From IMG/VR virus record IMGVR_UViG_3300028666_000039, positions 1 through 57,206 of that record: a DNA stretch of 57,206 nucleotides. One strand, written 5' to 3'. Origin of the DNA: a virus. The notes under the pieces are model-generated. The model worked only from the letters and a program-made list of their open reading frames with translations. It had not been told where the DNA came from and did not search any database. Numbering within the stretch: position 1 is the stretch's first letter; each line of letters begins with the position of its first letter. The position numbers and the translations under genes are program-made. This document shows positions 762-57,071 of the stretch, piece after piece.

Positions 762-777
762 CGCGCACCGTTGCGCG
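762..777. repeat. Palindrome family A copy (CGCGCACCGTTGCGCG)
   Basis: Intergenic, between the terminator and the integrase 3' end, five bases before repeat copy 3 of the attP region. Confidence 0.85.
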
Positions 778-33948: not shown

Positions 33949-34243
33949 TTGCTTCAAAGAGAAAATCCCCCGAGACAAAAAATACTTGTCATGGATTCGC
34001 ACACTCCCTTGCTGTGTTCGCAGTGCCGACTGTTCGGGACCGGTAGCGCCGCATCACACAGCAAGGGCGTTCGGAGGATTAAAGGGAAGTGACTACTCGT
34101 GCGTTCCGATCTGTTTTCATCATCACAACCTAGTGCAATACTACCAATGGAAGTTCAAGGACAGGTTTCACTTTATACCCGACGAGGACTATGCAAAAGA
34201 CAAATACTTTACCCGTTACAACGACCAGCGACAACTTCTTTAA
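33941..34243 (+). CDS. HNH-type nuclease, Ref/DUF968-like
   Basis: A 100-residue protein with the spacing of the Ref/YbcO (DUF968) HNH family: WIRTLPCCV, then APHHTARAFGGLKGSDYSCV (note H and PH), then PICFHHHNLVQ. Cys and His residues are placed for a bound metal ion. Ref is a RecA-dependent nuclease in phage P1; here a recombination or repair role is inferred. GTG start overlaps the previous gene by 8 bases. Confidence 0.7.
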   Translation: MSSCFKEKIPRDKKYLSWIRTLPCCVRSADCSGPVAPHHTARAFGGLKGSDYSCVPICFHHHNLVQYYQWKFKDRFHFIPDEDYAKDKYFTRYNDQRQLL

Positions 34244-40573: not shown

Positions 40574-40587
40574 TGCGGTTTTCCGCA
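40574..40587. repeat. Palindrome family B copy (TGCGGTTTTCCGCA)
   Basis: Noncoding copy with a TTTT centre in place of the usual WCGW. Confidence 0.7.
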
Positions 40588-40908: not shown

Positions 40909-40924
40909 CGCGCAACAGTGCGCG
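40909..40924. repeat. Palindrome family A copy (CGCGCAACAGTGCGCG)
   Basis: Noncoding copy, about 90 bp before the promoter at 41015. Confidence 0.85.
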
Positions 40925-41014: not shown

Positions 41015-41043
41015 TTGACAAAGTGCTATCCATTGATTATATT
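41015..41043 (+). promoter_or_regulatory. Consensus promoter for the 41.1-42.1 kb unit
   Basis: TTGACA (41015-41020), 17 bp, TATATT (41038-41043), about 38 nt before the ATG at 41081. Confidence 0.8.
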
Positions 41044-41303: not shown

Positions 41304-42065
41304 ATGAAAGCAGTCGAATTGTCGCCAGAGGTAATGAAAAGTATGAATGATCTTCGTGCTGAATATACCGCAAAGTCTTTCGTTTTCAATTCCTCAGTGT
41401 TCAAAGGTATGTATGAGCTGGGAGAAATTGCAAACAAGGCAAAGTCTATCGGATCAAAAGAGTTCAAAGAGTTTTTAGCGGGCAAGCTGAATGAAGGGGC
41501 GGTAAATAATCAAATTCTTGTATACAAGGGCTTTTTAGAAGACGTGACAAAACAGGGGCTTGAGGTCGTTTCCGGCATTCTCAAAGAATCGGATTATACG
41601 AAAATTCTCGAAGTCGCAAGAATGCGGGCAAAAAGCGATACAATAAAGCCCGTCGAGGCTGTGCAAGCATTGCAAGTGCTCTCTCTTCCGGCGATTCAAG
41701 TCATACGCAAGTCTTTAGACGGTTCGGAAAATGCCGGTATTGCTTCGGCGGTCAAGGCCGGTGACTATGAAAAAGTAAAGACCGACAGCACCGCAGTTGT
41801 TGAGGTCCGGCGGGCGAATGCGCAAGAATCGAAAGACAAAATTGAATCGGCGGCGGCGGCATCGACGACGAACGCAAGCGAAAACGAAAACTTGCAAAAG
41901 TTGCTTGCGCAAGCTGAAAAAGAACGGGACTTTTTCCGTGACACAGTACGCGTTCTCTTGAGAAATGCGGAGTTTGTCGAATTGCCCGCATACAAGGCTC
42001 AAAACCACTTAGACTTTGCAAAGTTCATCGTGAACGCTATGAAGAAACAGACCGCAAAGGTTTAA
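41304..42065 (+). CDS. Hypothetical coiled-coil protein, 253 residues
   Basis: A helical protein with a likely helix-rich N-terminal half (VMKSMNDLRAEYTAKSFVFN), an Ala/Glu-rich middle, and a coiled coil at about 195-215 (NENLQKLLAQAEKERDFFRD). It lacks motifs of ParA, ParB or known initiators. It is closed by a terminator directly after its stop. Because it is transcribed alone with a small basic protein from a promoter at the edge of the repeat region, a DNA-binding role at that region is a fair guess. Confidence 0.6.
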   Translation: MKAVELSPEVMKSMNDLRAEYTAKSFVFNSSVFKGMYELGEIANKAKSIGSKEFKEFLAGKLNEGAVNNQILVYKGFLEDVTKQGLEVVSGILKESDYTKILEVARMRAKSDTIKPVEAVQALQVLSLPAIQVIRKSLDGSENAGIASAVKAGDYEKVKTDSTAVVEVRRANAQESKDKIESAAAASTTNASENENLQKLLAQAEKERDFFRDTVRVLLRNAEFVELPAYKAQNHLDFAKFIVNAMKKQTAKV

Positions 42066-42392: not shown

Positions 42393-42421
42393 TTGACAAA
42401 CGGCCTACCATGTATTATATT
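42393..42421 (+). promoter_or_regulatory. Consensus promoter of the accessory operon
   Basis: TTGACA (42393-42398), 17 bp, TATATT (42416-42421). The 42.5-54.3 kb genes all run away from it without another clear promoter or terminator until 54.6 kb. Confidence 0.8.
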
Positions 42422-42464: not shown

Positions 42465-42480
42465 CGCGCAACAGTGCGCG
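42465..42480. repeat. Palindrome family A copy (CGCGCAACAGTGCGCG)
   Basis: In the leader of the accessory operon, 20 nt before ATG 42501; context TAACT-palindrome-GAAAGGAGGG. Confidence 0.88.
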
Positions 42481-42500
42481 GAAAGGAGGGAGGTATAGAC

Positions 42501-42884
42501 ATGAAAAAACCACTCTTCCAGCAGCTTTCAAGCGCTATCTGCGCATATCAGAATTGCATCGAGAGTAACAACACTCTATGGGAGGAGAAACACTTAGAGA
42601 GGATTCACAAGATAGAGAAAGAGCTTCCGAGCGGCAGCGGAATTGACATGGGAACTCTCATTGCCTTAGATGAGAGCACGTCCGAGCGAATCGTCTTCAC
42701 GACTGCATACCATCACATGAGAGAGAACGGAATGTATGACGGCTGGACTGAGCACAGGATCATATTAACGCCAAGTCTGCAATTCCAGTATAGCCTTAGA
42801 ATAACCGGAAGAGACCGAAACGGGATAAAGGACTATTTGCATGTAATCTTCTCGGAAGCCATTGAGCAAGAAATAGAATTTTAA
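42501..42884 (+). CDS. Hypothetical protein, 127 residues
   Basis: ATG 42501 behind a very strong GGAAAGGAGGGAGG. Helix-rich N-terminus (QQLSSAICAYQNCIES) and a beta-rich second half (RIILTPSLQFQYSLRITGRD). First gene of the accessory operon. No family recognised. Confidence 0.65.
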   Translation: MKKPLFQQLSSAICAYQNCIESNNTLWEEKHLERIHKIEKELPSGSGIDMGTLIALDESTSERIVFTTAYHHMRENGMYDGWTEHRIILTPSLQFQYSLRITGRDRNGIKDYLHVIFSEAIEQEIEF

Positions 42885-42913
42885 ACTATTCCACCACAGA
42901 CACACCCACAACC

Positions 42914-42929
42914 CGCGCAACGGTGCGCG
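42914..42929. repeat. Palindrome family A copy (CGCGCAACGGTGCGCG)
   Basis: Intergenic, 29 bases after one stop and 32 bases before the next ATG. Confidence 0.88.
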
Positions 42930-42961
42930 GCAACCTTCAACGATCAACCTACGGAGCAAAT

Positions 42962-43267
42962 ATGCAGACCTTCCAACCTACATGCACAGCAAAGAGCTTC
43001 AATGCTGTAGCAGTTCACGCAGTCGGCGGCGCTCGGCACAGACGACTGCAAGCGTACCTAAGCATCGTAATCACAAACCGCGAAACAGGCCAGCAGAAGA
43101 TCGTCAAGAATCGTCAGGGCAAGCCGGTAGTGGCGACGGTCGAAGCCAACTCGATCATTCAACTCGACCATATCCTTCGTGGTTACTTCGGCAACGGTGA
43201 CGTTGACGCGATCATCCAGTCCATCGAAAAGCTCGACGAGTTCGAGGGAGTTCCTTATGTCAACTGA
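42962..43267 (+). CDS. Hypothetical basic protein, 101 residues
   Basis: ATG 42962, with GGAGCAAAT upstream. Basic strand-rich N-terminal half (GGARHRRLQAYLSIVITNRE) and acidic C-terminal helix (VDAIIQSIEKLDEF). No family recognised. Confidence 0.6.
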   Translation: MQTFQPTCTAKSFNAVAVHAVGGARHRRLQAYLSIVITNRETGQQKIVKNRQGKPVVATVEANSIIQLDHILRGYFGNGDVDAIIQSIEKLDEFEGVPYVN

Positions 43268-43457
43268 CACGATAAAACGGCAAAAGACCTGCCGATGGTG
43301 CAGGGTTAGAAGTATATGTGGAAAGACTTCCCCTGATTCCGGTCGATATACTTGCACTCGGAAAAGGGGTCACAGGGGTTTTCACCGTGCCTGCGGCAAT
43401 ACCTCAAATAATCACCCGATAACAATATGGAAGGAGGGCGAAACATCATGCCGATAA
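43257..43457 (+). CDS. Small zinc-finger-like protein, 66 residues
   Basis: ATG 43257 overlaps the preceding gene by 11 bases. Cys12, Cys15, Cys21, Cys33, His39, His43 and Cys46 suggest one or two bound zinc ions; the chain is strongly basic (GRYTCTRKRGHRGFHRACG). A nucleic-acid-binding role is possible. Confidence 0.55.
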   Translation: MSTDTIKRQKTCRWCRVRSICGKTSPDSGRYTCTRKRGHRGFHRACGNTSNNHPITIWKEGETSCR

Positions 43458-43873
43458 ATCCAACAACCTGCGCCGACATCGTTAAGATGCTTCGGGACGG
43501 CAAGGCTGTAGCGTTCAATCGACCGCTTACGCCTGCCGAAATAGCGGTGGCCTCTGCGGACAGCAAATATGTCTACGGACTGCGCCACGACGAAGGCGAT
43601 TTATCGCTTCCTATTATGGTCGCGCCGTGCGTAGTCTTCAATAGGTACGGAGTTCTCGTCACAGATGAACTAATTCACTTTCCTGACGGGGACGATCAGG
43701 CAATTCCACTCACCGAGCGGGCGGCCCAAACCATCGACTATTTCGCCGATCACAACTTCCAGTACCAGGACTTAGGCCAATGCTCGGGTTGCTGTGAACG
43801 TTGCATCTTTATTTCCGAGTGCTGGACGGAAGAAAATGAAATGCAACCCTGGAAAACCGGGGAGGCTGTATGA
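43448..43873 (+). CDS. Hypothetical Cys-rich protein, 141 residues
   Basis: ATG 43448 chosen because AAGGAGGG lies just upstream. The C-terminal part (CSGCCERCIFISECW) clusters five cysteines. The N-terminal half (ADIVKMLRDGKAVAFNRPL) has no motif I know. Confidence 0.55.
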   Translation: MPINPTTCADIVKMLRDGKAVAFNRPLTPAEIAVASADSKYVYGLRHDEGDLSLPIMVAPCVVFNRYGVLVTDELIHFPDGDDQAIPLTERAAQTIDYFADHNFQYQDLGQCSGCCERCIFISECWTEENEMQPWKTGEAV

Positions 43874-44100
43874 ATGGAATAACTATCAACAGACGGCATA
43901 CGAGAATGCTCTTGCTCGATAGCGATAACTCTATCCACACTGCTTGCGATTACGATGGTAGAACTTTCTCCGATAGAGAGGCGACGAACCTTTCCAACTA
44001 TAACCAACTCAGTAAAATCGGGTCGGTTAGGCATTGGACATTGCCAAGTGGCCATTCGGGTTTTTTCGTGCTTCAACCGCATCTCCTGGAGGCCGTATGA
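43870..44100 (+). CDS. Hypothetical protein, 76 residues
   Basis: A small beta-rich protein (RRHTRMLLLDSDNSIHTA then HWTLPSGHSGFFVLQPH), overlapping both neighbours by 4 bases. No family recognised. Confidence 0.55.
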   Translation: MNGITINRRHTRMLLLDSDNSIHTACDYDGRTFSDREATNLSNYNQLSKIGSVRHWTLPSGHSGFFVLQPHLLEAV

Positions 44101-44594
44101 CTGCTCAATTTCAACCCATAACGTCTACGCCTCAGCGCGTAAGTTATTCGAGACTCGCATTGCGCACAGTGGTATGGAAGTTTCGAGAGGTAGAGGACGT
44201 TCCGATTACATTCAAACGCGAACCGATTCGCTGTCCTGCCGACCTCTTCGTAAACTATAGGTTCATGTTTGACGATGAAACAGTGGAAAAGTTCGTCGTC
44301 TTTGCACTGAACTCGGGAAATGTCGTGCAAGTCGCTGAAACGATCAGCACTGGACTCCTAAATACGTCCCTTACCCATCCACGAGAAGTTTTCCGGTATG
44401 CGGTCGTCAACAGCGCGGCGTCGATTATCTTGGCGCACAATCACCCGTCAGGCAACCCTGAACCGAGTCAGGAAGACATCCATATCACCAAACAACTCAC
44501 AGAGGCTGGAAGAATTCTTGGTATCCCGGTCCACGACCATATAATTTTCACAAAGGGCGGGTTTATATCGTTCGCAGAAAGGGAATTGCTATGA
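44097..44594 (+). CDS. radC: RadC-like JAB-domain protein
   Basis: A 165-residue protein with the RadC metalloprotease-like signature: ETISTGLLNTSLTHPREVFR, then SIILAHNHPSGNPEPSQEDI (His-x-His-Pro-Ser-Gly with the downstream Asp) and DHIIFTKGGFISFAERELL. The N-terminal HhH domain of cellular RadC is missing. RadC-like proteins are frequent in mobile elements, often beside anti-restriction genes; their reaction is still unclear. ATG 44097 overlaps the previous stop. Confidence 0.85.
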   Translation: MTAQFQPITSTPQRVSYSRLALRTVVWKFREVEDVPITFKREPIRCPADLFVNYRFMFDDETVEKFVVFALNSGNVVQVAETISTGLLNTSLTHPREVFRYAVVNSAASIILAHNHPSGNPEPSQEDIHITKQLTEAGRILGIPVHDHIIFTKGGFISFAERELL

Positions 44595-44776
44595 AACCAT
44601 TCCAATTTATCGGCTGGCAACATCATAAGAAGGGCTACGGCGAAACATTCTTTCCGATGTTCAACATCTTCGACACTGCAAGTCCTCTCTGCGGCTCAAC
44701 GGTATCATTCCGAACTCTCGTTTCGCTGGGCTACTTAATGCGTGGCGGGCCGGTCAAGAAAGGGGCGACGAATTGA
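44591..44776 (+). CDS. Hypothetical protein, 61 residues
   Basis: Overlaps RadC and the next gene by 4 bases each. Aromatic-rich (KPFQFIGWQHHKKGYGETFF). No family recognised. Confidence 0.5.
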   Translation: MKPFQFIGWQHHKKGYGETFFPMFNIFDTASPLCGSTVSFRTLVSLGYLMRGGPVKKGATN

Positions 44777-45126
44777 ACGACGAACCCATCCTAATTGGCC
44801 CAGGAGGTCTCGGTTCTGGAACCACAATCATTGAAGACGAACATCATCCAGTAATTAAAATCGAGACTCGCGACGACATCTCTCGGCGGACTTCGGCTCA
44901 GGCGCGACGATCAACCTCAATACTTCCGCTTCTCTTGGGCATAGCGTCGCTCGGCGGCGGCATTGACGCTCTCGCTGGCATGGGCTGGCCGCATATTCCA
45001 GAACGTCGCCAAGCCAGGAAATGCCATCTTCCGGGATGCGAGGAATGGACAACTCACAACGGCGGCTTTTGCTGTGCAGAACACTGTATCGCATACCGAC
45101 GACTCAATAAGTCACTAAAAACATAA
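44773..45126 (+). CDS. Hypothetical protein with C-terminal Cys/His cluster
   Basis: A 117-residue protein, TTG start in the preceding stop. One hydrophobic segment (LPLLLGIASLGGGIDALAGM, about 52-71) and a C-terminal CHLPGCEEWTTHNGGFCCAE then HC cluster that may bind zinc. It ends 6 bases before the tmRNA. Confidence 0.5.
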   Translation: MNDEPILIGPGGLGSGTTIIEDEHHPVIKIETRDDISRRTSAQARRSTSILPLLLGIASLGGGIDALAGMGWPHIPERRQARKCHLPGCEEWTTHNGGFCCAEHCIAYRRLNKSLKT

Positions 45127-45132
45127 AGGTTT

Positions 45133-45518
45133 GGGGCTGAATTGGTTTCGATTGGTGTCTCAGTTATAGGATGCACGTAGAGAAGGTCACTCTTAAAACC
45201 AAAAACACATAACTGCCGAAAAATCGGACAGCTACGTTGACGAAAACGGTTTCCTCGTGTTCGCCGACGAAGAACTCAAATTGGCTGCATAAGCTCGTTT
45301 GACGAAGCGCCCTGACAATACCCTTCGATTAACCAAGAGTCAGGTGGTGGAGGTCGCGGAAAACGGAGATGGTCACGCACCGTTAAAAGTGTGACTAAGA
45401 GTGCCGGGCATTGGCTTGACTCCATCCGACGCGCTCGAAGGCTATAAGTCAGGCTAAACGTGTGAACGAGTTCTATCGCGAAAACATCAAGACCGGGGTT
45501 CGAGTCCCCGCAGCTCCA
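45133..45518 (+). ncRNA. ssrA: tmRNA (phage-encoded)
   Basis: A 386-nt RNA. The 5' end GGGGCTG pairs with the 3' end CAGCTCC, including the G3-U pair conserved in tmRNA. The T-arm CGGGG-TTCGAGT-CCCCG (45494-45510) is canonical; CCA is not encoded. The 5' GGGGCUGAAUUGGUUUCGAU matches tmRNA consensus. After CATAACT the resume codon GCC (45215) opens a 25-codon tag ending DEELKLAA and TAA (45290-45292). The LAA end is the ClpXP degron. It rescues stalled ribosomes and marks the product; in a phage it could help free ribosomes late in infection. It sits between protein genes of the operon, so it must be processed out. Confidence 0.9.
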
Positions 45519-45546
45519 CAGGAATAAACTAACATCAATCAAACAT

Positions 45547-45560
45547 TGCGGACGACCGCA
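45547..45560. repeat. Palindrome family B copy (TGCGGACGACCGCA)
   Basis: Between the tmRNA and the next gene, 16 bases before a family A copy; the only place where both families meet. Confidence 0.85.
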
Positions 45561-45576
45561 CAATCGAAAATTAACT

Positions 45577-45592
45577 CGCGCACCGTTGCGCG
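45577..45592. repeat. Palindrome family A copy (CGCGCACCGTTGCGCG)
   Basis: 11 nt before ATG 45604; context TTAACT-palindrome-GCAAGGAAATC. Confidence 0.88.
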
Positions 45593-45603
45593 GCAAGGAA
45601 ATC

Positions 45604-45918
45604 ATGCACACAGCAAAAGAGAATATCACTGCACTCCCTGAGTTCTGCTACGGTCGGCTACTTGCTGACAATAGTCTCATCGGAATTCACGCAGGAGAAG
45701 CTGGCTATCGCCGAAAGGTCAATCACCCTCTCCCCGACTCAGTCCATCAACAAAGCAAGGATGAGGTAGAGGCATTCATCGACGAGCAAAACAAGGCGCT
45801 CGGAGTAACCAAGGGGCAGCGCGAAGCAATGGAGATCGGTTCAATGTTTGGCTGGGAGGTGGCTGGCGCTGATCCGTTGAACTACAATGACGATGGAACG
45901 CGGAAGGTGGTGTCGTGA
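45604..45918 (+). CDS. Hypothetical protein, 104 residues
   Basis: ATG 45604, ribosome-binding site CAAGGAA. Contains a helical acidic middle (QQSKDEVEAFIDEQNKALG) and a MEIGSMFGWEVAG segment. No family recognised. GTG of the next gene overlaps its stop. Confidence 0.6.
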   Translation: MHTAKENITALPEFCYGRLLADNSLIGIHAGEAGYRRKVNHPLPDSVHQQSKDEVEAFIDEQNKALGVTKGQREAMEIGSMFGWEVAGADPLNYNDDGTRKVVS

Positions 45919-46436
45919 ACAGAACCGAGGCGATCCAAAAGAAGAATGAATTGTTGGCAATTATCTACTGGCACAATCGCGGCACGTTCCCGAAAGACAA
46001 CATCGAGGAAGTTAAGCGTGAATGCAAAGAGATATTGCATAAACTCATCCACAACGAATACCCGAAACAAGTGAACGAGCGCGGCAACTTTATCGAAAGG
46101 GGATTCAAGCCCAACACCGAGCGCTACTACTACGACTTCGAGAAACTGAAACGTGTCGACGGCTGGGAGCAATACGACACAAGGCAGGATGCCTGGTATT
46201 TCGGCGTATGGGTGAATACGACACGCAGAGAGATATTCACATTCGCTGAGGGCGACACAACCCTCGTGACTTGCCCCACACTCGAAAGTTTTCGAGCGGA
46301 ACTGGCGGAAATGGAGAAGTTCTACGGTCCGCCTCCTCCGGCGTTCATCGCTTGCGACGGCATCGGACTTGCAAATGGGAAGATCGTTCCCGAAGGCAAT
46401 GTCACACTATTCTTCGACAAAAGACCAACAGCCTAA
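45915..46436 (+). CDS. Hypothetical protein, 173 residues
   Basis: GTG start. Helical N-terminus (EAIQKKNELLAIIYWHNRG), then a beta-rich part with aromatic residues (DAWYFGVWVNTTRREIFTFA) and a FYGPPPPAF stretch. No family recognised. Confidence 0.6.
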   Translation: MNRTEAIQKKNELLAIIYWHNRGTFPKDNIEEVKRECKEILHKLIHNEYPKQVNERGNFIERGFKPNTERYYYDFEKLKRVDGWEQYDTRQDAWYFGVWVNTTRREIFTFAEGDTTLVTCPTLESFRAELAEMEKFYGPPPPAFIACDGIGLANGKIVPEGNVTLFFDKRPTA

Positions 46437-46449
46437 AAAGGAGTAGAAA

Positions 46450-47166
46450 ATGCTATCCCAACCCTCTCGTAGAATTATCGTTGTCGACAAAGACTACGAC
46501 ATTGCCGTTGACAATGGAGATCACTTCGTAGTCGAAATCGGTTTCACAAAAAACCATCGAAGCGCTCACTTCACGCATCCCAATATAGCTCGGACGCTGG
46601 AGAGGATTCTGGAATTCAAGCACTATCATAACGACGGAAGCAAACACTGGGAGCAGAAGAAGGGCGGCTCTCACTACTTCGTCGTTCCGCAGAAGTTCGT
46701 CGAGTTTCCTCTCGAAAAGGGGTATTCGTATGTCGCTGCAATAATTAACGGCGAGAGGATTGTCTTCAACGTCTCGGGTGGTACAAGTGAAAAGGGATGG
46801 CGCGACTGGGTTGGAATTAAGGTCAGCACATGCGTCAATCAAAATATCAAGACGTTACAAGCTATCGCTGCGGTATCGGTCAGAGGGACGACACATGAAC
46901 CGATTAAGACCAATGAGGAACTGGAAGAAGAATTCTATGTAACACACAGGAACCACTACCTCGTCAACTCGGCTTGGGGCGACTGGCAAAAAGGAGTACC
47001 AGAAGGAATGGTCGGAGTAGTTGCGAAGATTGGCGGACATAGGGGAGACCCTGCGACCGGCGAGAAGTGGTTCTTCGTTCCAAAGGCTGAGTATGACGAG
47101 CGGCAACATCAATTCGTTGTCGATCCGACCCGCCACCAAGAAACAACTGACTTCGTTCACACTTAA
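46450..47166 (+). CDS. Hypothetical protein, 238 residues
   Basis: ATG 46450 with AAAAAGGAG upstream. Mixed fold with aromatic-rich strands (GSHYFVVPQKFVEFPLEKGY, then WGDWQKGVPEGMVGVVAKIG). Many His and Trp residues, no recognised motif. One of the larger unknowns of the accessory operon. Confidence 0.65.
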   Translation: MLSQPSRRIIVVDKDYDIAVDNGDHFVVEIGFTKNHRSAHFTHPNIARTLERILEFKHYHNDGSKHWEQKKGGSHYFVVPQKFVEFPLEKGYSYVAAIINGERIVFNVSGGTSEKGWRDWVGIKVSTCVNQNIKTLQAIAAVSVRGTTHEPIKTNEELEEEFYVTHRNHYLVNSAWGDWQKGVPEGMVGVVAKIGGHRGDPATGEKWFFVPKAEYDERQHQFVVDPTRHQETTDFVHT

Positions 47167-47168
47167 TC

Positions 47169-47184
47169 CGCGCAACGGTGCGCG
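47169..47184. repeat. Palindrome family A copy (CGCGCAACGGTGCGCG)
   Basis: Begins 3 bases after the stop codon at 47166 and ends 19 nt before ATG 47204. Confidence 0.88.
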
Positions 47185-47203
47185 ACTAGAAAGGAAAACC
47201 GAT

Positions 47204-47386
47204 ATGTCAAATTCACAGATTTACTTCGCAAGAGAACTCGCAACAGAGCTTTCTTATTCAAGCGAAGCCGCAAGGATGCACAAGTTCTCTCACTTCGTCC
47301 ACGTTGTTCGGGAAAGACTCGATGCGGCTGTGTGTCCTCAGCGCGTTGTTGTCGCGGCCTACTACAAATTCATCTCACTGGTGTAA
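47204..47386 (+). CDS. Hypothetical protein, 60 residues
   Basis: ATG 47204, ribosome-binding site GAAAGGA. Helical (ARELATELSYSSEAARMHKF). Two bases separate its stop from the next GTG. No family recognised. Confidence 0.55.
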   Translation: MSNSQIYFARELATELSYSSEAARMHKFSHFVHVVRERLDAAVCPQRVVVAAYYKFISLV

Positions 47387-47388
47387 CC

Positions 47389-47742
47389 GTGAACTCAGTA
47401 GAACTGCTACAATTTCAACTCGACGTGCTTTGCCGTGAGGCGGTTTGTGCAATTCAAAAAGAGGTCATGCGCCTTACAGGGGAGACAGACTTAATCGACC
47501 GCTTTATCGACCTGAGGTGCGACGGGTACGATATAACAAAGGAACTCGACAGAACTGGTGTAGTTATCGTCGGCGTAAGCGCCCTTGAAGTCATCGTTTT
47601 GAACGTGAATGATGATGAATATACGACCCCCATTACTATGCTCACCATCGAAGAACAACTTCTCACACTCAAAGCCTTGGAGGTCATAGAACCTCGCAAA
47701 CTCAAACTCCGATTAGGGGAAGGAGTGAATGAGTATGCCTAA
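47389..47742 (+). CDS. Hypothetical acidic protein, 117 residues
   Basis: GTG 47389 directly after the previous stop; the frame is open upstream but lacks a better start. Helices VELLQFQLDVLCREAVCAIQ and EQLLTLKALEVIEPRKL flank a beta-hairpin-like centre (VVIVGVSALEVIVLNV). No family recognised. Confidence 0.55.
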   Translation: MNSVELLQFQLDVLCREAVCAIQKEVMRLTGETDLIDRFIDLRCDGYDITKELDRTGVVIVGVSALEVIVLNVNDDEYTTPITMLTIEEQLLTLKALEVIEPRKLKLRLGEGVNEYA

Positions 47743-48217
47743 AATATCTCCAGAAGAAGAGGCGCGAATCAAGGCCAATGCTGTGAAGATGTGCGGAGAC
47801 AATAAACTGCCGAACCGTTACTGGGTTTCGGCTCATGCAGACTACCTCACCAATAAGGCCAACTATAGGAGTAAGCAGAGCAACTGTTACGACTGGGCGG
47901 GCGACACCTACAAAGACCTTCCCGAAAAATATAGGATGCTCGGCGAGTTCCGAAAGTTTGAGGACGCTCTCAAGTGCGCCAACGAATTCCTTGAAAGCGG
48001 AGGAGTTCCGTCTCCCGAAGACACCTGGGACGACTTTCATTCGATTCAGATTGAAGACCGTTTGACTGGAACGCTTTGGGAGGCGGTGTGGTCGGAGTGT
48101 CATCGACGCTTCGGAGATAAAAAACGCTTCCACAAGGTCAGTTTTGACTTTGAGATGCGTGACGACACCAGGTATACCCGCGAGGAAATGAAAAAGCGCG
48201 GCGCTCAATTTATCTAA
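47729..48217 (+). CDS. Hypothetical protein, 162 residues
   Basis: ATG 47729 or 47735, both served by AAGGAG. Polar helical protein (SPEEEARIKANAVKMCGDNK, FRKFEDALKCANEFLES) with HRRFGDKKRFHK near the end. Overlaps its predecessor by 14 bases. Confidence 0.6.
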   Translation: MSMPKISPEEEARIKANAVKMCGDNKLPNRYWVSAHADYLTNKANYRSKQSNCYDWAGDTYKDLPEKYRMLGEFRKFEDALKCANEFLESGGVPSPEDTWDDFHSIQIEDRLTGTLWEAVWSECHRRFGDKKRFHKVSFDFEMRDDTRYTREEMKKRGAQFI

Positions 48218-48218
48218 T

Positions 48219-48232
48219 TGCGGACGACCGCA
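48219..48232. repeat. Palindrome family B copy (TGCGGACGACCGCA)
   Basis: Begins 2 bases after the stop at 48217 and ends 13 nt before ATG 48246, followed by GAAAGGAAGT: the same stop-hairpin-ribosome-site layout as family A copies. Confidence 0.88.
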
Positions 48233-48245
48233 GAAAGGAAGTCAT

Positions 48246-48521
48246 ATGAGCAACCAAGCACGTAGGATTGTGAAAATAGTTCACGCCAGGCAAGTTTCGT
48301 TTGCAGCGCAAGGCAAGGTAGGTCAGCGACTACTGAACGACAGCCAACTCAACTTGGACGGCGGAGGATATGTGACTATTCAAGTTGACGATATCGAGGA
48401 ATTCCTCGCCGGTGAAAGAAGTCAGATTCAGTATGACCCCGACGAGATAGCGGCGCTTACTGCCGACGTTAAAGCCGCTCGCAAGCGCGGGGACGATTCC
48501 ATTGATTACGATATTTTCTGA
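48246..48521 (+). CDS. Hypothetical protein, 91 residues
   Basis: N-terminal half basic (MSNQARRIVKIVHARQVSFA), C-terminal half acidic and helical (YDPDEIAALTADVKAARKRG). No family recognised. Confidence 0.6.
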   Translation: MSNQARRIVKIVHARQVSFAAQGKVGQRLLNDSQLNLDGGGYVTIQVDDIEEFLAGERSQIQYDPDEIAALTADVKAARKRGDDSIDYDIF

Positions 48522-48529
48522 GGCCGGTC

Positions 48530-48778
48530 ATGGTGAAACTTATCATCGAATCGCGCGGCGGAGTAATTCATAGCATATACAAGTCGATGCTCGACGAAGA
48601 AGTCCAAGTCTTCGTTCTGGATTACGCAACTCTCGACGCTGGAACTCCGCCTGCAAGCGTCCTTCATCCACTTCCAATAACTGACGTTATATTGCCCGAC
48701 ATAACAACGTTACTCGTCAAGAAACTTCGGGACTATCAACCAAAAAGGAGCAAAGGTAATGGTGCGAATTCTCATTGA
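48530..48778 (+). CDS. Hypothetical protein, tandem paralogue A
   Basis: An 82-residue protein related to the next one: MVKLIIESRGGVIHS versus MVRILIEVSGGVVTN, then DEEVQVFVLDY versus REEVQVHVIDH, and a shared PxPxTxV end. The pattern suggests a small beta-sheet domain. It overlaps its paralogue by 20 bases. Function unknown. Confidence 0.6.
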   Translation: MVKLIIESRGGVIHSIYKSMLDEEVQVFVLDYATLDAGTPPASVLHPLPITDVILPDITTLLVKKLRDYQPKRSKGNGANSH

Positions 48779-48968
48779 AGTAAGCGGTGGAGTGGTGACA
48801 AACGTCATCGTTCCAGTTCGAGAAGAAGTGCAAGTCCACGTTATAGATCACGACGATATCAGCATCGGCGAACAAGACCCAGCAGATATGATTAAGCCGT
48901 TTCCGGTAACGGTCGTGGCGGACGTGCAGAAGGAACTCTTCAGGATCGCAGGGGAAGCCGTCGCATGA
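48759..48968 (+). CDS. Hypothetical protein, tandem paralogue B
   Basis: A 69-residue paralogue of the preceding protein; AAAAGGAGCAAAG precedes its ATG inside the upstream gene. Together they look like a recent local duplication followed by divergence. Confidence 0.6.
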   Translation: MVRILIEVSGGVVTNVIVPVREEVQVHVIDHDDISIGEQDPADMIKPFPVTVVADVQKELFRIAGEAVA

Positions 48969-49210
48969 CGTTCTCTATAATCGCGAAGCTATTTGGCCGT
49001 GACCGCCAATATATCTCGGAGGCCAAAGTCTCTTTTGGGGCGATGAATTTTGGGAATGCTCTAAGAATGATCGACGACGAAGAACTCAACCAACGCGGAA
49101 GGGAGTTGAGGATGGACTTCGACAAGTCAACGCTCAAGATGTGCGAAGATGCTCCGCCAGTCCGAGGGGCATACCAAGTAGAAATACTGCCAACGAAAAA
49201 AGCTCGCTAA
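48965..49210 (+). CDS. Hypothetical protein, 81 residues
   Basis: ATG overlaps the previous stop by 4 bases. Amphipathic and charged (MIDDEELNQRGRELRMDFDK); no family recognised. Its stop is followed after 2 bases by a family A palindrome. Confidence 0.55.
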   Translation: MTFSIIAKLFGRDRQYISEAKVSFGAMNFGNALRMIDDEELNQRGRELRMDFDKSTLKMCEDAPPVRGAYQVEILPTKKAR

Positions 49211-49212
49211 CT

Positions 49213-49228
49213 CGCGCAACGGTGCGCG
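49213..49228. repeat. Palindrome family A copy (CGCGCAACGGTGCGCG)
   Basis: Context TAACT-palindrome-GAAAGGAAGTT, ending 11 nt before ATG 49240. Confidence 0.9.
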
Positions 49229-49239
49229 GAAAGGAAGTT

Positions 49240-49647
49240 ATGTCATTAGCAACATGGAAAACAGAATTCTATCCGGTCGATGCAAATACGAAAATGACGA
49301 GACACAAAGCAGTTCAGCACTCACTTTTGAAGTGGACTGGACTCCTGCCAAAGAATCTCGCCAAACACAACCTCTATTCGGTCAATCATTCGATACGGGA
49401 AGACTGGTCTGACCAATTCATGATCGACGCTCATTCGTGCGCTCTCTGCCAACTCAGCATAGGACAGCACTGTGATAAGTGTCCACTACAAAAAGTAAGA
49501 GGCGGTGTCGATTGCGATGACCGACGTAAGACGGAAGTAATTGCGCCGTACCTCGTATTTACAACCTGCAAGAACCCGAAACCAATGATTAAGTGGCTCA
49601 GAAAAGCGCTTATCCTAACTCAACCACGAAAGCGAGTGAAGTCGTGA
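49240..49647 (+). CDS. Hypothetical zinc-binding protein, 135 residues
   Basis: ATG 49240 behind GGAAAGGAAG. Cys67, Cys70, Cys78, Cys81 (CALCQLSIGQHCDKC) and Cys92 form a treble-clef-like or ribbon motif. The C-terminal tail is basic (MIKWLRKALILTQPRKRVKS). Probably binds nucleic acid; no family recognised. Confidence 0.6.
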   Translation: MSLATWKTEFYPVDANTKMTRHKAVQHSLLKWTGLLPKNLAKHNLYSVNHSIREDWSDQFMIDAHSCALCQLSIGQHCDKCPLQKVRGGVDCDDRRKTEVIAPYLVFTTCKNPKPMIKWLRKALILTQPRKRVKS

Positions 49648-50255
49648 ATGACATCGACAAATACACCCAACAAGTAGGACTCGCTCTTGGTCCGGAGTGG
49701 CAGTTTGAAGAGAAGGAAGAGAAGGGCGATCACTGGGGATGCCTCCACACGAAGGAGCTTAACCTCAGCGTTTATGGGTCGCGGGATCCACAGAAATATA
49801 ATCTCCATCTCAGCCTCAACAATGAGCTGAACGAACACAGACCATGCGCCGCGACTCAGTATGCCGATATCGGCGTAGCGAGGACGAAAACGCCTCAACA
49901 GGTCGCGGGCGAAGTTAGAAGGCGACTTCTACCGCAGATGGAGGAAACTGTTCGAAAGTCCGTTCTCAATCTTATCGAGTTCAACCAGGCGAGAAAGAAT
50001 GCAGACCGGATTGCGCTCTTACTCAAAGAGGCGTTGCCCACTCTGAAAATCGACGAGCGAAATGAAAAACTCTCGGACTCTTCGCTCTCCATGCCATACG
50101 ATTCCAAGATAACGCTCGACATAGACGTTAATGGGCATGCGAAAGCTCGTCAGGTTGAAATCAAGGTCGGACGGGTCTCGACAGAAATGGCAGTCGCCAT
50201 TCTCAAAGCTATCGGTACGATCGGACTACAAGTAGGAGAAGACGATGAAGATTAA
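49644..50255 (+). CDS. Hypothetical protein, 203 residues
   Basis: GTG start overlapping the previous stop. N-terminal half with aromatic and basic residues (YNLHLSLNNELNEHRPCAAT), a central helix (GEVRRRLLPQMEETVRKSVL) and an acidic end (GEDDED). Resembles small phage proteins of unknown function; no family recognised. Confidence 0.6.
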   Translation: MNDIDKYTQQVGLALGPEWQFEEKEEKGDHWGCLHTKELNLSVYGSRDPQKYNLHLSLNNELNEHRPCAATQYADIGVARTKTPQQVAGEVRRRLLPQMEETVRKSVLNLIEFNQARKNADRIALLLKEALPTLKIDERNEKLSDSSLSMPYDSKITLDIDVNGHAKARQVEIKVGRVSTEMAVAILKAIGTIGLQVGEDDED

Positions 50256-50475
50256 TGTATGCGACCCATGCCTCATTGAAGGATTTATAGTGCCTACTCA
50301 AAGGCGGCTTAAACTGCGACAGGGCGGTATGTCTGTGTCGGTTGATTGCTGCCCGAGACACGCGGACGAATTAAGGAAGAAGAGTGTCGGCGCGGAAGAG
50401 ATGGCACAGATTACGCACAATGCGTTTATCTCCGCTATTGATATCGACGGAAAGACATTTATTAGAAAAATGTAA
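50245..50475 (+). CDS. Hypothetical Cys-rich protein, 76 residues
   Basis: CDPC near the start and CCPRH in the middle suggest a single zinc site; the rest is helical (ADELRKKSVGAEEMAQITHN). Overlaps the preceding gene by 11 bases. Confidence 0.55.
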   Translation: MKINVCDPCLIEGFIVPTQRRLKLRQGGMSVSVDCCPRHADELRKKSVGAEEMAQITHNAFISAIDIDGKTFIRKM

Positions 50476-50477
50476 CT

Positions 50478-50493
50478 CGCGCAACGTTGCGCG
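50478..50493. repeat. Palindrome family A copy (CGCGCAACGTTGCGCG, perfect)
   Basis: The fully symmetric member, two bases after a stop codon (TAACT) and 29 nt before ATG 50523. Confidence 0.9.
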
Positions 50494-50522
50494 GCAACAA
50501 ACAAAAAGGAAACCTTACGACT

Positions 50523-53500
50523 ATGGAAACGAAAGGACAGAAAGTCACCGAGAAATTACTGGAGAGTATCGGTGACGCTACTACGAATATCAATCTCCAA
50601 AAGGGGCTGCAACAATACTATACGCCTCAGAGGTTCGCTGAGTTTCTGTGCAAAGTCTTTGCAGATCAAAGTTCTGGACATCTTAGCGTCCTCGACATCA
50701 CTTGCGGTGCAGGTTCGCTTTTACTTCCATTCACGGCTCGCAACGTAACGAATCGAACTTGGAACGGCAAGGAATATGAGACGGAAGAAATGCCAGCAAA
50801 CGAGGTCTACGGTGTGGAGCTGGACAAGGAAAATATTCCAGGGAAAGAAGTCCCTGGCAACTTTCTACATGCAGACTTCACTCAGTTCTACAAATACCTC
50901 AAAGCGGTTCAATTTGAAGCGGACATATTCGCACTCAATCCGCCGTTCGGATTAAGTTGGGACGTTTCGGAGGATGTTCCGAAGAACTCAGTCGAAGCAA
51001 CGATGGCAATGGCTTATGAACTCAGTCACCAATATAGCGGTGGCTATATCATCATGTCAGCCAGGAATGCAGAGATCATAACGGAAAGCCATCCCGAGTT
51101 ACTTGAGAAGGTCTTCTTTCGACTCAACGTCAAGGGACTTTTCAAACCGTTCTCAGATGTCGATAGTGTAGTCCTCTTCTTTGGAAAAAACTGCCGACAC
51201 TATCGCGACAGAGTTTTTGATATCGACTTTCAAACGGCCAAGGATAGCGAATACGACACGATCATAAAAGATATTTCCCATGTCACATACTACGACGTTT
51301 CAGTCACTAGTCGTTCGTCATTAGCTGAACGTCGTCAAAACAGACAACTTTGGCTGGCTGCTGTTGACCGATACAAACAGGACAAGGGAGCGCGTAAACA
51401 GAAGTTCTCCGTCGAGTTAAGAGGCGGAAAGCTGCGGTGTGCTTTCACGCTCTATGAGGAATTTACACTCGCCAAGCAGTTGAAGGGCGACGAAATATCT
51501 GTGTTCCGGCAGATGAATGGAGTAGCGCCGACGTATTTCAGTTTCAACTCCATCGCTCGACGAACCCTCATGCTTCTGCTGGCCAAAGGCATGACGATTC
51601 AACCTGCGGCGAAAGCGGCAATCGACAAGGGACTCCAAGACTCTGCATTTCTCAATGCGCCATTCTACGACCTCAAGCCTCAGCAGCGATTGGGATGGTT
51701 GAACGATCTTACTCAAATCAAATGCGTAAAGGGCGGCGACTGGCGCGGCATTACCTACGTCCAGGATACGATGTATGAGATATGGACGACTAGTAAGGTA
51801 ATGAGCACCTATTACGGCAAAGAAGATAAAGAGGGCGAGTTCCAGAAGCAGCAACGAGTCCTCCACGTTACGATCGGACCGGCTGAGTTCGACGAATCGC
51901 CGGACGACATCGCGTTCCTAATAAAACACTTCGACGTTCCGAACCCCTCAAACGTGCGAGACTTAAAGCCCGAACTTTATGCGGTCGTCCGCAAAATCAT
52001 TGAGTCGCCGGTATTCGCTTCATTCACTCTGACGGCCTTCCAGGTAGAAGACCTGTCTCGCGCCTGCATGAAAGACGCTTTCGTCCTGGCATGGGAGCAG
52101 GGTACCGGAAAGACGCGCGGCATAATTGTTTGGGGTATGGTAAAAGCGATTCTGGAAAACAACAAGTTAGTCGCCGACATCGTAGCCGGAAAAGACGTTA
52201 CGCTGAAGCACGTCGTCAAGGCGATCAGGAAACGATTTCTCGTCGTGATGCCGAAGAATATCATGGGACAGTGGCAAAAGTTCCTAACTGACAACGGAAT
52301 CAACGCTACGGTGCTAAGCGACGTGATTCAGGCGAACAAACTGCGCAGGACACACGCCAGCGAACTCGAATTCTACATAACTGACTACGGAATCATCAAG
52401 TCGAGCCGGAGATTCCCAAATCAGTCGCCTTGCGAAGTTCAGAGGGTGTCGGAGTTCTATCTCGACAACTATCTGAAACTGGAATCGAGCGAGACGTTTT
52501 GGGAGAAGAAGAATCACACGCAGACGAAGCAGTGGCAGGACTATCTTGAAATCAGACGAATGCAACTCTTCCCGTCATCCTGCAAAGAGTTCTGTCCGAA
52601 ATGCAAAACCGTAAAGGGCGAGGGATGGAACGGGTACGCTTGCAAGAAGTGTTCCACGAATACCTACGGGAAGCGATTCAAGGGCATGGCCTACGTTCTT
52701 AAGCATGTCTTTGACATCATCGCCCTGGACGAATCGGAACGAATCAAGAACAAAGATACATTGGTCGGCAGAGCGATCTTGGGAATGAGGGCAAAGTATA
52801 AATGCTGTTCATCCGGGACACCGATCAAGGCATACATTCGAGATATGTATTCGGTAATGCACTGGGTTCTCGGCAACGCATCGCCGCGATTCCCCTACGA
52901 CTACGCCAATGGAGGCATGGACAAGTTCCTGACCGACTACGGCGTATGGGAAACTCGAATGGAGGACCGCAGAAAAGGACTCGCGAAATCCTCTCCCAAG
53001 CTCTTGCCGGAGATCAGCAACTTGGCTCTTTGGTGGAAGCTGTTCTTTCCGGCTGCGATTCGTCGTCGCCAGGAAGAAATCGACGAGGAATTCGTGAATA
53101 TCAAGTTCCACTATACGGCCGTACCGTTCGCCAAGAAGCAACATGCGCTCTATCAGTGGTGGATTGCGAACTTCGCTCAGTGGTACAAAGAGAATCGAAA
53201 CGAGGAGGCTAGTGGAAATCCGTCCCCCTACGATCTCATCAAAGGATTGTTGTGGAAGATGCGATTCACGGCTACCAACCCGGACTCGAAGAATCTTTGG
53301 GCGCACAATGGCTTAGGCTCGGGATCCAATTTCACTCCGAAAAACCTGGCAATCATAAAACAGGTCTCGGAGCTACTGAAAGACGGTAGACGGATTGTCG
53401 TGTTCTCGGCATTGAAAGACGAATGCGCCTTCTTGGACATCGTTCTCAATCAGGCCGGAGTCAAGTCGGAAGTTGTCAACGGCGACATTCCGCCTCTTAA

Positions 53501-54056
53501 ACAAGGCGAGAAGGTGTTGAAGTTTCAACAAGGCAAGCTCGACGTGCTGATCTGCGGCATCGACGCTATGAAGTCAGGCCACGATATTAGCGAAGCGAGT
53601 GCGGCAGTTGTCTGCGACTTCCCGTGGAATTCTTCTGACTTCCGACAAGCCGTTAAGAGAATTCATCGCAAGTCATCCAAGCGCGACGTGGACGTATTTG
53701 TGGTCTACACCGCAGCCAGCGTTGACGAGCGCATGAAAGACCTAGTTGAGAAAAAAGGCGCTATGTCGGACATCGCAATCGACGGAGAGCTTATTTCGCA
53801 GGACAGCGAAGACCTTGATTTCGTGAAGATATTGAAAGAGACAATCGAACTCTTCAAGAAGTCAGAGACCGGCGCAGATGAGCTTGAGATCGAGCGCGAA
53901 GCCCGAAAAGAACTAGAATCGCTAGGCATAGCGCTGGCAGGTATTCGCAATCGACCACTTCCAGTTATCGAAGGAGACGGCGACGAAACATGGAGAGACA
54001 TTCCAGACGACATCCTCGACGGTTTCTTGGAAGCACTAGACAGGGAGGCTGCGTAA
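50523..54056 (+). CDS. DNA methyltransferase - SNF2-type helicase fusion
   Basis: A 1177-residue two-part protein. Residues 1-290 are an adenine-type DNA methyltransferase: motif I DITCGAGSLLLPF (58-70), motif IV NPPF (about 139-142), preceded by YYTPQRFAEFL as in type I and type IIG enzymes. About 500-1010 is an SF2 translocase: EQGTGKT (524-530), DESE in place of DEAH (736-739), SGTPI, and the C-lobe QAVKRIHRKSS. Four cysteines (about 690-710, CPKC and CKKC) form a zinc ribbon between motor motifs. The build resembles P1 DarB-type anti-restriction proteins. A family B palindrome is in its coding part (51980-51993). Confidence 0.85.
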   Translation: METKGQKVTEKLLESIGDATTNINLQKGLQQYYTPQRFAEFLCKVFADQSSGHLSVLDITCGAGSLLLPFTARNVTNRTWNGKEYETEEMPANEVYGVELDKENIPGKEVPGNFLHADFTQFYKYLKAVQFEADIFALNPPFGLSWDVSEDVPKNSVEATMAMAYELSHQYSGGYIIMSARNAEIITESHPELLEKVFFRLNVKGLFKPFSDVDSVVLFFGKNCRHYRDRVFDIDFQTAKDSEYDTIIKDISHVTYYDVSVTSRSSLAERRQNRQLWLAAVDRYKQDKGARKQKFSVELRGGKLRCAFTLYEEFTLAKQLKGDEISVFRQMNGVAPTYFSFNSIARRTLMLLLAKGMTIQPAAKAAIDKGLQDSAFLNAPFYDLKPQQRLGWLNDLTQIKCVKGGDWRGITYVQDTMYEIWTTSKVMSTYYGKEDKEGEFQKQQRVLHVTIGPAEFDESPDDIAFLIKHFDVPNPSNVRDLKPELYAVVRKIIESPVFASFTLTAFQVEDLSRACMKDAFVLAWEQGTGKTRGIIVWGMVKAILENNKLVADIVAGKDVTLKHVVKAIRKRFLVVMPKNIMGQWQKFLTDNGINATVLSDVIQANKLRRTHASELEFYITDYGIIKSSRRFPNQSPCEVQRVSEFYLDNYLKLESSETFWEKKNHTQTKQWQDYLEIRRMQLFPSSCKEFCPKCKTVKGEGWNGYACKKCSTNTYGKRFKGMAYVLKHVFDIIALDESERIKNKDTLVGRAILGMRAKYKCCSSGTPIKAYIRDMYSVMHWVLGNASPRFPYDYANGGMDKFLTDYGVWETRMEDRRKGLAKSSPKLLPEISNLALWWKLFFPAAIRRRQEEIDEEFVNIKFHYTAVPFAKKQHALYQWWIANFAQWYKENRNEEASGNPSPYDLIKGLLWKMRFTATNPDSKNLWAHNGLGSGSNFTPKNLAIIKQVSELLKDGRRIVVFSALKDECAFLDIVLNQAGVKSEVVNGDIPPLKQGEKVLKFQQGKLDVLICGIDAMKSGHDISEASAAVVCDFPWNSSDFRQAVKRIHRKSSKRDVDVFVVYTAASVDERMKDLVEKKGAMSDIAIDGELISQDSEDLDFVKILKETIELFKKSETGADELEIEREARKELESLGIALAGIRNRPLPVIEGDGDETWRDIPDDILDGFLEALDREAA
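51980..51993. repeat. Palindrome family B copy (TGCGGTCGTCCGCA)
   Basis: Coding copy (within YAVVRKI) between the methyltransferase and helicase parts of the fusion. Confidence 0.75.
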
Positions 54057-54277
54057 TGGGAGTCGATGCGGTGGTATTGCGAAATCCGACTCAGACGTTT
54101 GCCGAAGTAGAACTGCGGTCGGGCAAGGCTGTTGTATTGGCCTTTGCCCTGCCCGCAGAGGGGAATGACTGGCAACAAAGAGTTAGGACAGCGTTAGGGA
54201 GATCATATCCAAGAAAGTTCCTGCGGTCGATCAAATTCAGACAAGGAACCTTCCATCCAATCACCCCCGGCGCGTAA
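54056..54277 (+). CDS. Hypothetical protein, 73 residues
   Basis: ATG 54056 shares a base with the fusion gene stop. Basic second half (RVRTALGRSYPRKFLRSIKF). The stop lies inside a family A palindrome. No family recognised. Confidence 0.55.
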   Translation: MGVDAVVLRNPTQTFAEVELRSGKAVVLAFALPAEGNDWQQRVRTALGRSYPRKFLRSIKFRQGTFHPITPGA

Positions 54278-54286
54278 CGTTGCGCG
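54271..54286. repeat. Palindrome family A copy (CGCGTAACGTTGCGCG)
   Basis: Variant with CGCGT at one end; outer bases extend the stem (CCGG ... CCGG). The stop codon TAA of the preceding gene is in its left arm; 20 nt later a new ATG starts. Confidence 0.85.
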
Positions 54287-54585: not shown

Positions 54586-54593
54586 AAAGAAAA

Positions 54594-55737: not shown

Positions 55738-56563
55738 GTTCGCTCAATTCGCGGGAGTGTCGCCTGACCAACTCGCCTCTTTGCCGCACATGGAGCTTTT
55801 CAATAAGGCTCGCGCGTTCGCAAAGAGTATCGAGGGACAGTCATCGGCCACGATAGCGCGAAAGATGTCTGCGATTAGGAGCTATATCAACTTCCTGTGC
55901 AATATAGGAATCCTGAAAGCAAATCCACTCGACTTTGTCAAGGTTGGCAAAGTCCACAACGCAGAAAAGGAGTTCTTAAGCGACGAAGACGTTCAAAAGA
56001 TTATTTCGGCGATCAAGGTAGATACGTTGGTCGGAATGCGCAATCTACTCATAGTCCAGATGGTAACGGAACTCGGCTTGCGGCGGGCCGAAATAGCGAA
56101 CATGACTTACGGTAACTTACGAGAAGATGCGGCTGGCCGCAAAGTCCTCAAGTTCGTCGGCAAGCGCGAAAAGGAGCGGTCGCTTCCGATCTCACAAGAA
56201 CTCCTGGCAAACCTGGCAAAATATCGCGAGATGGCCGGGGTGACGGTTCTAAGCGACGACACGCCGCTTGCGCCCAACAGTCACGGCGAATGTTTGTGCG
56301 GGCAGTATATTTACGAAATGATCCAGAACTATGCCGACGCTGCCGGTGTGCATAAGAAGGTAACGCCTCACAGCTTTCGTCACTATGCGATCACGGACGC
56401 TGCAAAGGTTGAGGACAATATGCTTGCGCTTATGGAGTTCTCAGGTCATGCAAGTGTAGCAACATTGAAGCGATACACTCACTTTCGGGACACGGAAAAA
56501 GTTCAACAGATTCAAGACAAGCGGGCTGCAAAGTGCTCACCCGTCAACTTTCAAACAACTTAA
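55592..56563 (+). CDS. Tyrosine recombinase, Xer-like
   Basis: A 323-residue enzyme with all expected catalytic residues: Arg164 (LGLRRAE), Lys191, His260-x-x-Arg263 (HSFRH), His286 (SGH) and Tyr295 (LKRYTHF). The N-terminal domain (about 26-115) has the core-binding helices of XerC/D. It differs from the leftward integrase and lies on the other side of the attP-like site in the circle. It could resolve multimers, act at a second site, or be an alternative integrase. It begins 146 bases inside the preceding gene. Confidence 0.88.
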   Translation: METEMQSIQNPTVASQPSESVAVQDTTFAVWMEQLSLNTRRAYRTNVLEFAQFAGVSPDQLASLPHMELFNKARAFAKSIEGQSSATIARKMSAIRSYINFLCNIGILKANPLDFVKVGKVHNAEKEFLSDEDVQKIISAIKVDTLVGMRNLLIVQMVTELGLRRAEIANMTYGNLREDAAGRKVLKFVGKREKERSLPISQELLANLAKYREMAGVTVLSDDTPLAPNSHGECLCGQYIYEMIQNYADAAGVHKKVTPHSFRHYAITDAAKVEDNMLALMEFSGHASVATLKRYTHFRDTEKVQQIQDKRAAKCSPVNFQTT

Positions 56564-57055: not shown

Positions 57056-57071
57056 CGCGCACCGTTGCGCG
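57056..57071. repeat. Palindrome family A copy (CGCGCACCGTTGCGCG)
   Basis: Spans the left edge of the terminal repeat; bases 1-10 of the window are its truncated second appearance. It precedes the lipoprotein gene by 64 bases. Confidence 0.88.

Follow-up and report, generated by a model that had tools for sequence, protein, structure and literature searches.

The viral genome analyzed here carries a 16-bp palindrome, CGCGCA-N4-TGCGCG (hereafter family A), many times over, mainly in short gaps between accessory genes, and the question it raises is whether the element acts as RNA or as DNA. The original prediction described it as a single unit of upstream stop codon, hairpin and Shine-Dalgarno (SD) sequence, and also entertained a dispersed DNA operator and a mobile module. 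The sequence analyzed, referred to as the window, is the 57,206-base record IMGVR_UViG_3300028666_000039. Its termini form a 145-bp repeat (1-145 and 57062-57206, identical at 144 of the 145 positions), and the window accordingly represents a circle of 57,061 bp. The phage is tailed and temperate: a tyrosine integrase gene (798-1928) is followed by genes for two small HTH regulators (1931-2665) and by replication genes up to about 9.4 kb, the terminase gene is located at 11.2 kb, structural genes extend to about 33 kb, and the accessory region begins at 41 kb. The starts of small ORFs are our own simple calls, and the calls of small genes are imprecise.

The terminase of this phage has no match above about 28% identity among annotated phages. 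Alignments of the terminase, the portal, a 210-aa protein and the HTH proteins against a viral collection identified two relatives only, a close one, G001 (IMGVR 3300014496_000004, 48,566 bp; terminase 96% identical), and a distant one, G002 (3300014208_000048, 58,239 bp; terminase 61% identical); the comparison thus involves three phages, of which the window and G001 are close relatives. No related prophage was found in the genome collection scanned.

Besides the integrase gene, a second clear tyrosine recombinase gene is present at 55592-56563, and G002 encodes homologues of both; a third, weak candidate (36708-37541; Phage_int_M, E 0.002, below the cut-off) also has a homologue in G002. Near the 3' end of the integrase gene, the direct repeat TGTGCCTAAATTGTGCCTA occurs three times (495-521, 565-591 and 782-808) and possibly represents integrase arm sites or a part of the attachment region. 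Two tandem related genes (17463-17852 and 18385-18774), 74-75% identical over stretches of 146 and 186 nt, probably encode duplicated tail or structural proteins. The accessory region includes a tmRNA gene (45133-45519; Rfam RF00023, 92.9 bits; tag AEKSDSYVDENGFLVFADEELKLAA), in a segment that is missing from G001, and a gene (50523-54056) for a large N6-methylase and SNF2/helicase protein whose best plasmid relative (Rubrobacter) shows 27% identity over 94%.

Two palindrome families and their genomic placement

Family A is represented in the window by 12 exact copies, compared with 0.01 expected from dinucleotide shuffles, and the largest palindrome family in Markov-shuffled window genomes has 3 members. 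A further site at 54271, CGCGTAACGTTGCGCG, carries one mismatch and is embedded in a longer palindrome, CCGGCGCG...CGCGCCGG, so that the family consists of 12 full copies and one variant, not of the 13 full copies originally counted; the coordinates given for all of them were correct. A second palindrome, TGCGG-N4-CCGCA (family B), is common to all three phages, with nine copies in the window, seven in G001 and five in G002; several of the copies lie within coding sequence. Between the window and G001, 69 of 70 arm positions of family B are conserved, the single change being at 40574. The family A sites (no strand assigned) are the following:

762..777: flanked by a terminator-like hairpin and by the integrase gene (its 3' end); kept in G001 at 206
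4530..4545: in the 3'-terminal part of an exonuclease-like ORF; the downstream ORF overlaps and starts 18 nt further on; G001 3963
9881..9896: within coding sequence 9759-10145; kept in G001 at 7866
35165..35180: within coding sequence 34833-35513; G001 32351, arms kept, centre changed
40909..40924: about 90 bp upstream of promoter P41015; G001 38732
42465..42480: start 20 nt downstream, -35 of P42393 72 bp upstream; G001 40082, likewise 72 bp from the -35
42914..42929: start 32 nt downstream; G001 40404
45577..45592: 11 nt before a start, paired with the family B site 45547; segment missing from G001
47169..47184: stop codon 2 nt before, start 19 nt after; G001 43233
49213..49228: stop codon 2 nt before, start 11 nt after; gene and site both missing from G001
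50478..50493: stop 2 nt before, start of the N6-methylase/helicase gene 29 nt after; G001 45921
54271..54286: variant with one mismatch, in a longer palindrome; past the end of the G001 contig
57056..57071: across the circle junction

The family B sites (no strand assigned) are:

5445..5458: kept in G001
9183..9196: in a DnaB-like gene; kept in G001
23958..23971: in a 1409-codon ORF of the tail region (probable tape measure); kept in G001
32835..32848: immediately upstream of the -35 of a promoter-like sequence at 32858; kept in G001
40574..40587: family B-like, non-pyrimidine-purine centre, one arm base different in G001; probably incidental
45547..45560: paired with the family A site 45577
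48219..48232: flanked by a stop and an SD, start 13 nt downstream; G001 44278
51980..51993: in the methylase/helicase gene; G001 47423
56128..56141: in a tyrosine recombinase gene; past the end of G001

Two promoter-like sequences bear on the placement of family A:

41015..41043, plus strand: promoter-like TTGACA-17-TATATT (P41015), ahead of the gene 41304-42065
42393..42421, plus strand: promoter-like TTGACA-17-TATATT (P42393), with the same spacing to the family A site in G001

Nine of the 13 family A sites lie within 16 kb, from 40.9 to 57.1 kb, and three copies, all exact (4530, 9881 and 35165), are wholly contained in coding sequence; the site that straddles the circle junction was entered once in the counts. 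The paired B and A sites at 45547 and 45577 come directly after the tmRNA gene. The ATG that follows the variant site opens a 16-codon frame which ends in a stop, beyond which the same frame is open again over a longer distance (54307-54600), possibly a broken or recoded small gene.

Seven of the 13 sites (4530, 42465, 42914, 45577, 47169, 49213 and 50478) precede a start by 11-32 nt, which is the spacing originally predicted. The unit of stop, hairpin and SD, in contrast, is not general and was rejected as such: a true stop codon is found 2 nt before the palindrome only at 47169, 49213 and 50478, TAACT precedes 4 of the 13 copies, and the complete TAACT-palindrome-GMAAGGA arrangement is present in three (42465, 45577 and 49213). 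At two of these, the TAA terminates no upstream gene, being located in a promoter leader (42465) or after the tmRNA gene (45577). The presence of the element in nearly every intergenic gap over 25 bp also proved too strong a claim: with our simple gene calls, family A occupies 9 of the 16 such gaps beyond 40.8 kb, and A or B occupies 10 of them.

A consensus promoter lies in the 120 bp upstream of site 42465 alone, 72 bp away as measured from the start of the -35 in both the window and G001, and promoter scores are near background elsewhere. With promoters missing from the vicinity of most sites, their general function is unlikely to lie in the control of initiation, and a roadblock to elongation appears to be the simplest explanation. 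A classical CI operator was rejected, given that the predicted early promoter has no site: neither A nor B is found in the window between 2666 and 2851, at the predicted promoter 2722 beside the Cro/CI-type genes, the assignment of the early lytic promoter being itself deduced. There is no T-run directly 3' of any family A site, and a role as an intrinsic terminator or attenuator was rejected for want of a U-tract.

Conservation and replacement in the related phages

The close relative has nine family A sites, each of which matches one window site, one to one. Across these shared sites, the arms are identical at 108 of 108 positions, compared with 28 of 36 for the centres and 341 of 419 (81%) for the flanks (arms versus flanks, Fisher p 4e-9). 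Judged from this alignment, the arms of family A are under selection that is independent of the flanks. Of the four window sites without a counterpart, 45577 and 49213 belong to segments found in the window only, and 54271 and 57056 lie past the end of the G001 contig. The shuffles and the test of conservation refute an origin of family A by chance or as an effect of composition, with the excess of copies, the three-member maximum of the shuffles and the complete conservation of the arms all against it; the probability of such an origin is vanishingly small.

The gene 42481-42913, located between two family A sites, is replaced in G001 by an unrelated gene, and both breakpoints fall within 4 bp of the respective site. 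This exchange, along with the tyrosine recombinase genes at 798-1928 and 55592-56563, the second of them conserved in G002, speaks for a mobile module, that is, for palindromes that serve as short-homology or site-specific recombination sites through which accessory genes are swapped. However, a clean exchange of genes from site to site is seen at this one interval only; other insertions come with one site only (45577 and 49213), G001 retains none at the 49213 deletion, and the copies within coding sequence do not mark the limits of exchanged genes. Furthermore, the core sites of tyrosine recombinases require arms longer than 6 bp. We consider recombination a very improbable function, and the mobile module originally entertained finds no support in these comparisons.

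In the distant relative, there are zero copies of family A at up to 1 mismatch. A motif-free search revealed instead 13 copies, including variants, of an unrelated 16-bp palindrome, GTAGGCAYRTGCCTAC, which run from 1950 to 57976 of the G002 record. Ten of these 13 sites are located 10-19 nt before starts, with the SD mostly 0-1 nt after the palindrome, and the genes behind them mostly have no homologues in the window. Neither palindrome crosses over: the window type lacks GTAGGCAYRTGCCTAC, and G002 lacks the family A palindrome. Given that GTAGGCAYRTGCCTAC stands before starts in the genome from which family A is missing, the position has been kept and the sequence replaced. Absence of the motif from the syntenic gaps of relatives had been named in advance as counter-evidence; the motif is kept in G001 everywhere the gaps are shared but is missing from G002. 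The other palindrome in the same kind of position supports a change of specificity as opposed to an absent function.

Outside the lineage, GTAGGCAYRTGCCTAC and, among the matches listed, family B occur as isolated, probably chance copies, and no family A array is present in 34 other viral records, each of which contains a chance copy. If the palindromes were bound by a host transcription factor or nucleoid protein put to use by the phage, relatives that infect different hosts could differ completely in the sequence of their sites, as is seen with G002. This explanation is hard to reconcile with the unchanged family B and with a site set that is specific to the lineage, and we regard it as distinctly improbable.

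Family B sites are found just upstream of A-type sites in the window (45547/45577, 30 bp start to start) and, paired with GTAGGCAYRTGCCTAC, in G002 (44980/45010, 41508/41539 and 52328/52347; 30, 31 and 19 bp start to start, respectively). A two-key operator code across the accessory region could be envisaged, in which the reader of B is fixed in the lineage, the reader of A and its sites are replaced together, and the two proteins are bound side by side where an A and a B site lie about 30 bp from each other. We put this forward as a speculative and rather unlikely scheme; if true, it would amount to combinatorial, promoter-independent gating of genes with evolving self-recognition, of which no description in phages was found.

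DNA site or RNA hairpin, and the candidate readers

The sites possess dyad symmetry, with half-sites 10 bp apart, centre to centre, and this spacing fits HTH dimers, an established operator geometry. The centre of family A in the window is ACGG/ACAG in five sites, CCGT/CTGT in six and the symmetric ACGT in two; both orientations are thus present, as had been predicted, and no consistent orientation is apparent. The two central bases are pyrimidine-purine in 22 of 22 A sites, 20 of 21 B sites and 12 of 13 GTAGGCAYRTGCCTAC sites (54 of 56 in total), counts that include non-independent orthologous sites and become 9 of 9, 13 of 14 and 10 of 11, respectively, for distinct sequences. Such a step suits a flexible dyad centre. 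The arms show zero compensatory pair changes, and pair 6-11 is broken in 5 of the 13 GTAGGCAYRTGCCTAC sites. Finally, family A is found also upstream of a promoter (40909) and downstream of a gene end (762).

An RNA stem of 6 bp with a 4-nt loop, possibly bound by a phage protein, could alternatively control translation or mRNA stability from within leaders, beside the ribosome-binding site. That seven window sites and ten G002 sites, out of 13 in each, are located 10-32 nt before a start is compatible with this possibility, as is the presence of the hairpin in the minimum-energy fold at 9 of the 10 sites tested, and a role in translation would also account for the tight SD link in G002 (0-1 nt). 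However, the folding z-scores of the ten contexts range from -2.5 to +0.4 relative to shuffles, that is, are at best mildly better; the stem is invariant without compensation, in contrast to the free sequence and orientation of the loop, and is broken in the above 5 of 13 sites of G002. Copies in the middle of genes, ahead of a promoter and after a gene end also argue against an RNA element, as does the missing U-tract against an RNA terminator in particular. We therefore consider an RNA function unlikely, and the hairpin that was proposed as the functional unit is not borne out, its stems lacking covariation. The invariant arms, the pyrimidine-purine centre, the free orientation, the coding copies and the broken pairs in G002 jointly favour DNA sites of a dimeric protein over an RNA hairpin. 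The dispersed DNA operator, which the original prediction also offered, is accordingly the best reading of this phage-wide regulatory site family, which is specific to the lineage in that the 34 other records have no array.

Under this reading, the palindromes would be dispersed double-stranded DNA sites for a dimeric, sequence-specific and probably phage-encoded protein that reads two CGCGCA half-sites one helical turn apart. The protein is predicted to sit between genes and sometimes inside them, mainly in the accessory region (41-57 kb), where, once bound, it would probably form a roadblock to transcription elongation into individual genes, similar to that at stoperators; at 42465, the site might function as an ordinary operator just after P42393. 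In G002, the specificity of the protein would have switched to GTAGGCAYRTGCCTAC, and the sites would have switched along with it, and a second protein, of conserved specificity, would read family B and act beside the first at the paired sites. We infer the existence and nature of the protein, its roadblock action and its purpose, conceivably the silencing or timing of accessory genes; elongation block by a protein bound at family A sites is our best guess. Taken as a whole, with double-stranded DNA sites, dimeric protein, roadblock, changed specificity in G002 and a second protein on B, the proposal has in our judgment a marginally better than even chance of being correct.

Judged by how the phages have diverged, the reader of family A is expected to be similar in the window and G001 and different in G002, and the family B reader should be conserved. 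The following proteins are candidates:

1931..2353, minus strand: HTH_3 (Cro/CI-type) regulator, 140 aa, 94% identical in G001 and 38% in G002; candidate A binder
2357..2665, minus strand: second small HTH regulator, 102 aa, no G002 homologue found; candidate A reader
41304..42065, plus strand: 253-aa protein, the first larger accessory gene, 95% in G001; candidate by position only
34191..34823, plus strand: 210-aa protein, in all three phages (89%, 40-45%); candidate B binder by conservation only

At the position of the 253-aa protein, G002 encodes an unrelated-looking 262-aa protein, and no sequence similarity between the two was detected by BLASTP or hhalign; the predicted folds of both have a mean pLDDT of about 40 and are unreliable. 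The 210-aa protein has no convincing match in Pfam, PHROG or PDB.

Unplaced helical proteins near the sites, together with the dispersal of 16-bp palindromes on a 57-kb circle and their location away from promoters, could also be accommodated by ParB/KorB-like sites, on which a sliding or spreading protein loads for prophage partition or long-range silencing. Against such a function, zero matches to the ParA/ParB families were obtained with Pfam and PHROG among the proteins scanned, a subset of the ORFs that includes several proteins without an assigned family, the integrase genes favour integration over plasmid upkeep, and the link of the sites to gene starts is strong. We deem it quite improbable and retain the roadblock as the preferred interpretation.

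Comparison with known dispersed sites

In plasmid RK2, KorB operators are palindromic sites of a plasmid-encoded regulator that mediates long-range silencing (PMC11790492); they need a ParB-family protein, and none was recognised among the window proteins scanned. The L5 and Cluster A stoperators number 20-30 dispersed sites, mostly away from promoters, and are reported to act as elongation roadblocks, with a consensus that varies with the repressor between heteroimmune relatives (PMC6550527, PMC9283540). In G002, the palindrome consensus is different from that of the window, and the 140-aa HTH protein, a candidate binder only, is 38% identical there. Stoperators, however, are asymmetric, about 13 bp long and oriented with transcription, and include operators within promoters, among them the early lytic one (PMC6550527, PMC9283540), whereas family A is palindromic and unoriented, and the predicted early promoter here has no A site. 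Family A thus displays neither the asymmetric oriented site nor the early lytic promoter operator of the L5 type. In Cluster K, the SAS, 13 bp long, is an asymmetric and conserved motif located at the start, and the ESAS consists of 17-bp inverted repeats with a variable spacer, the consensus of which differs between subclusters (PMC3203893). Both are located just upstream of starts, as are many of the sites described here, and the change of the ESAS consensus between relatives is another similarity (PMC3203893); unlike the SAS, the SD region here is ordinary, GMAAGGA being present in 3 of 13 copies.

The closest parallels come from two other groups of phages. Cluster O mycobacteriophages carry more than 30 copies per genome of a 17-bp palindrome, TGTTCGG-N3-CCGAACA, one third of them in genes and most without a promoter, which are the predicted target of a dimeric DNA-binding protein (PMC4351075). 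As in the present case, the arms are invariant, the centre is variable, the sites are unoriented and mostly promoterless, and both intergenic and coding copies exist; unlike here, the sites show no close link to starts, nor are the phages clearly temperate (PMC4351075). The lineage described here differs further in the sequence itself, in having two partly paired families and in the greater density of sites before starts. In Cluster EG Microbacterium phages, the 18-bp inverted repeat GATCAACC-NN-GGTTGATC is present in 8-10 copies, typically 14-22 bp upstream of starts (PMC7302621). These repeats lie in short gaps at one genome end and are kept although the surrounding genes differ, likewise a feature of family A, but their sequence is constant among EG phages (PMC7302621), whereas in the present lineage the palindrome that G002 carries at such places is entirely different.

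The form of the repeat, its placement in short gaps of one genome arm, its maintenance among relatives (in G002 with a different sequence) and the absence of a link to promoters are all shared with Clusters O and EG. Therefore, although the original statement that no description of this sequence was known holds, the kind has been described (PMC4351075, PMC7302621), and the Cluster O, EG and ESAS precedents assign the element to a class that has been described without being explained. What is new is that two families coexist and are paired, and that one of the two has been completely replaced in a relative. The Cluster O and EG palindromes were reported in 2015 and 2020, respectively, with neither a binder nor a function assigned to them; the same architecture now appears in a lineage without a close relative in the annotated phage collection searched. 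Here, a pair of relatives whose palindromes differ at equivalent places, together with a few candidate DNA-binding proteins, among which one is expected to have changed along with the sites, provides a natural experiment.
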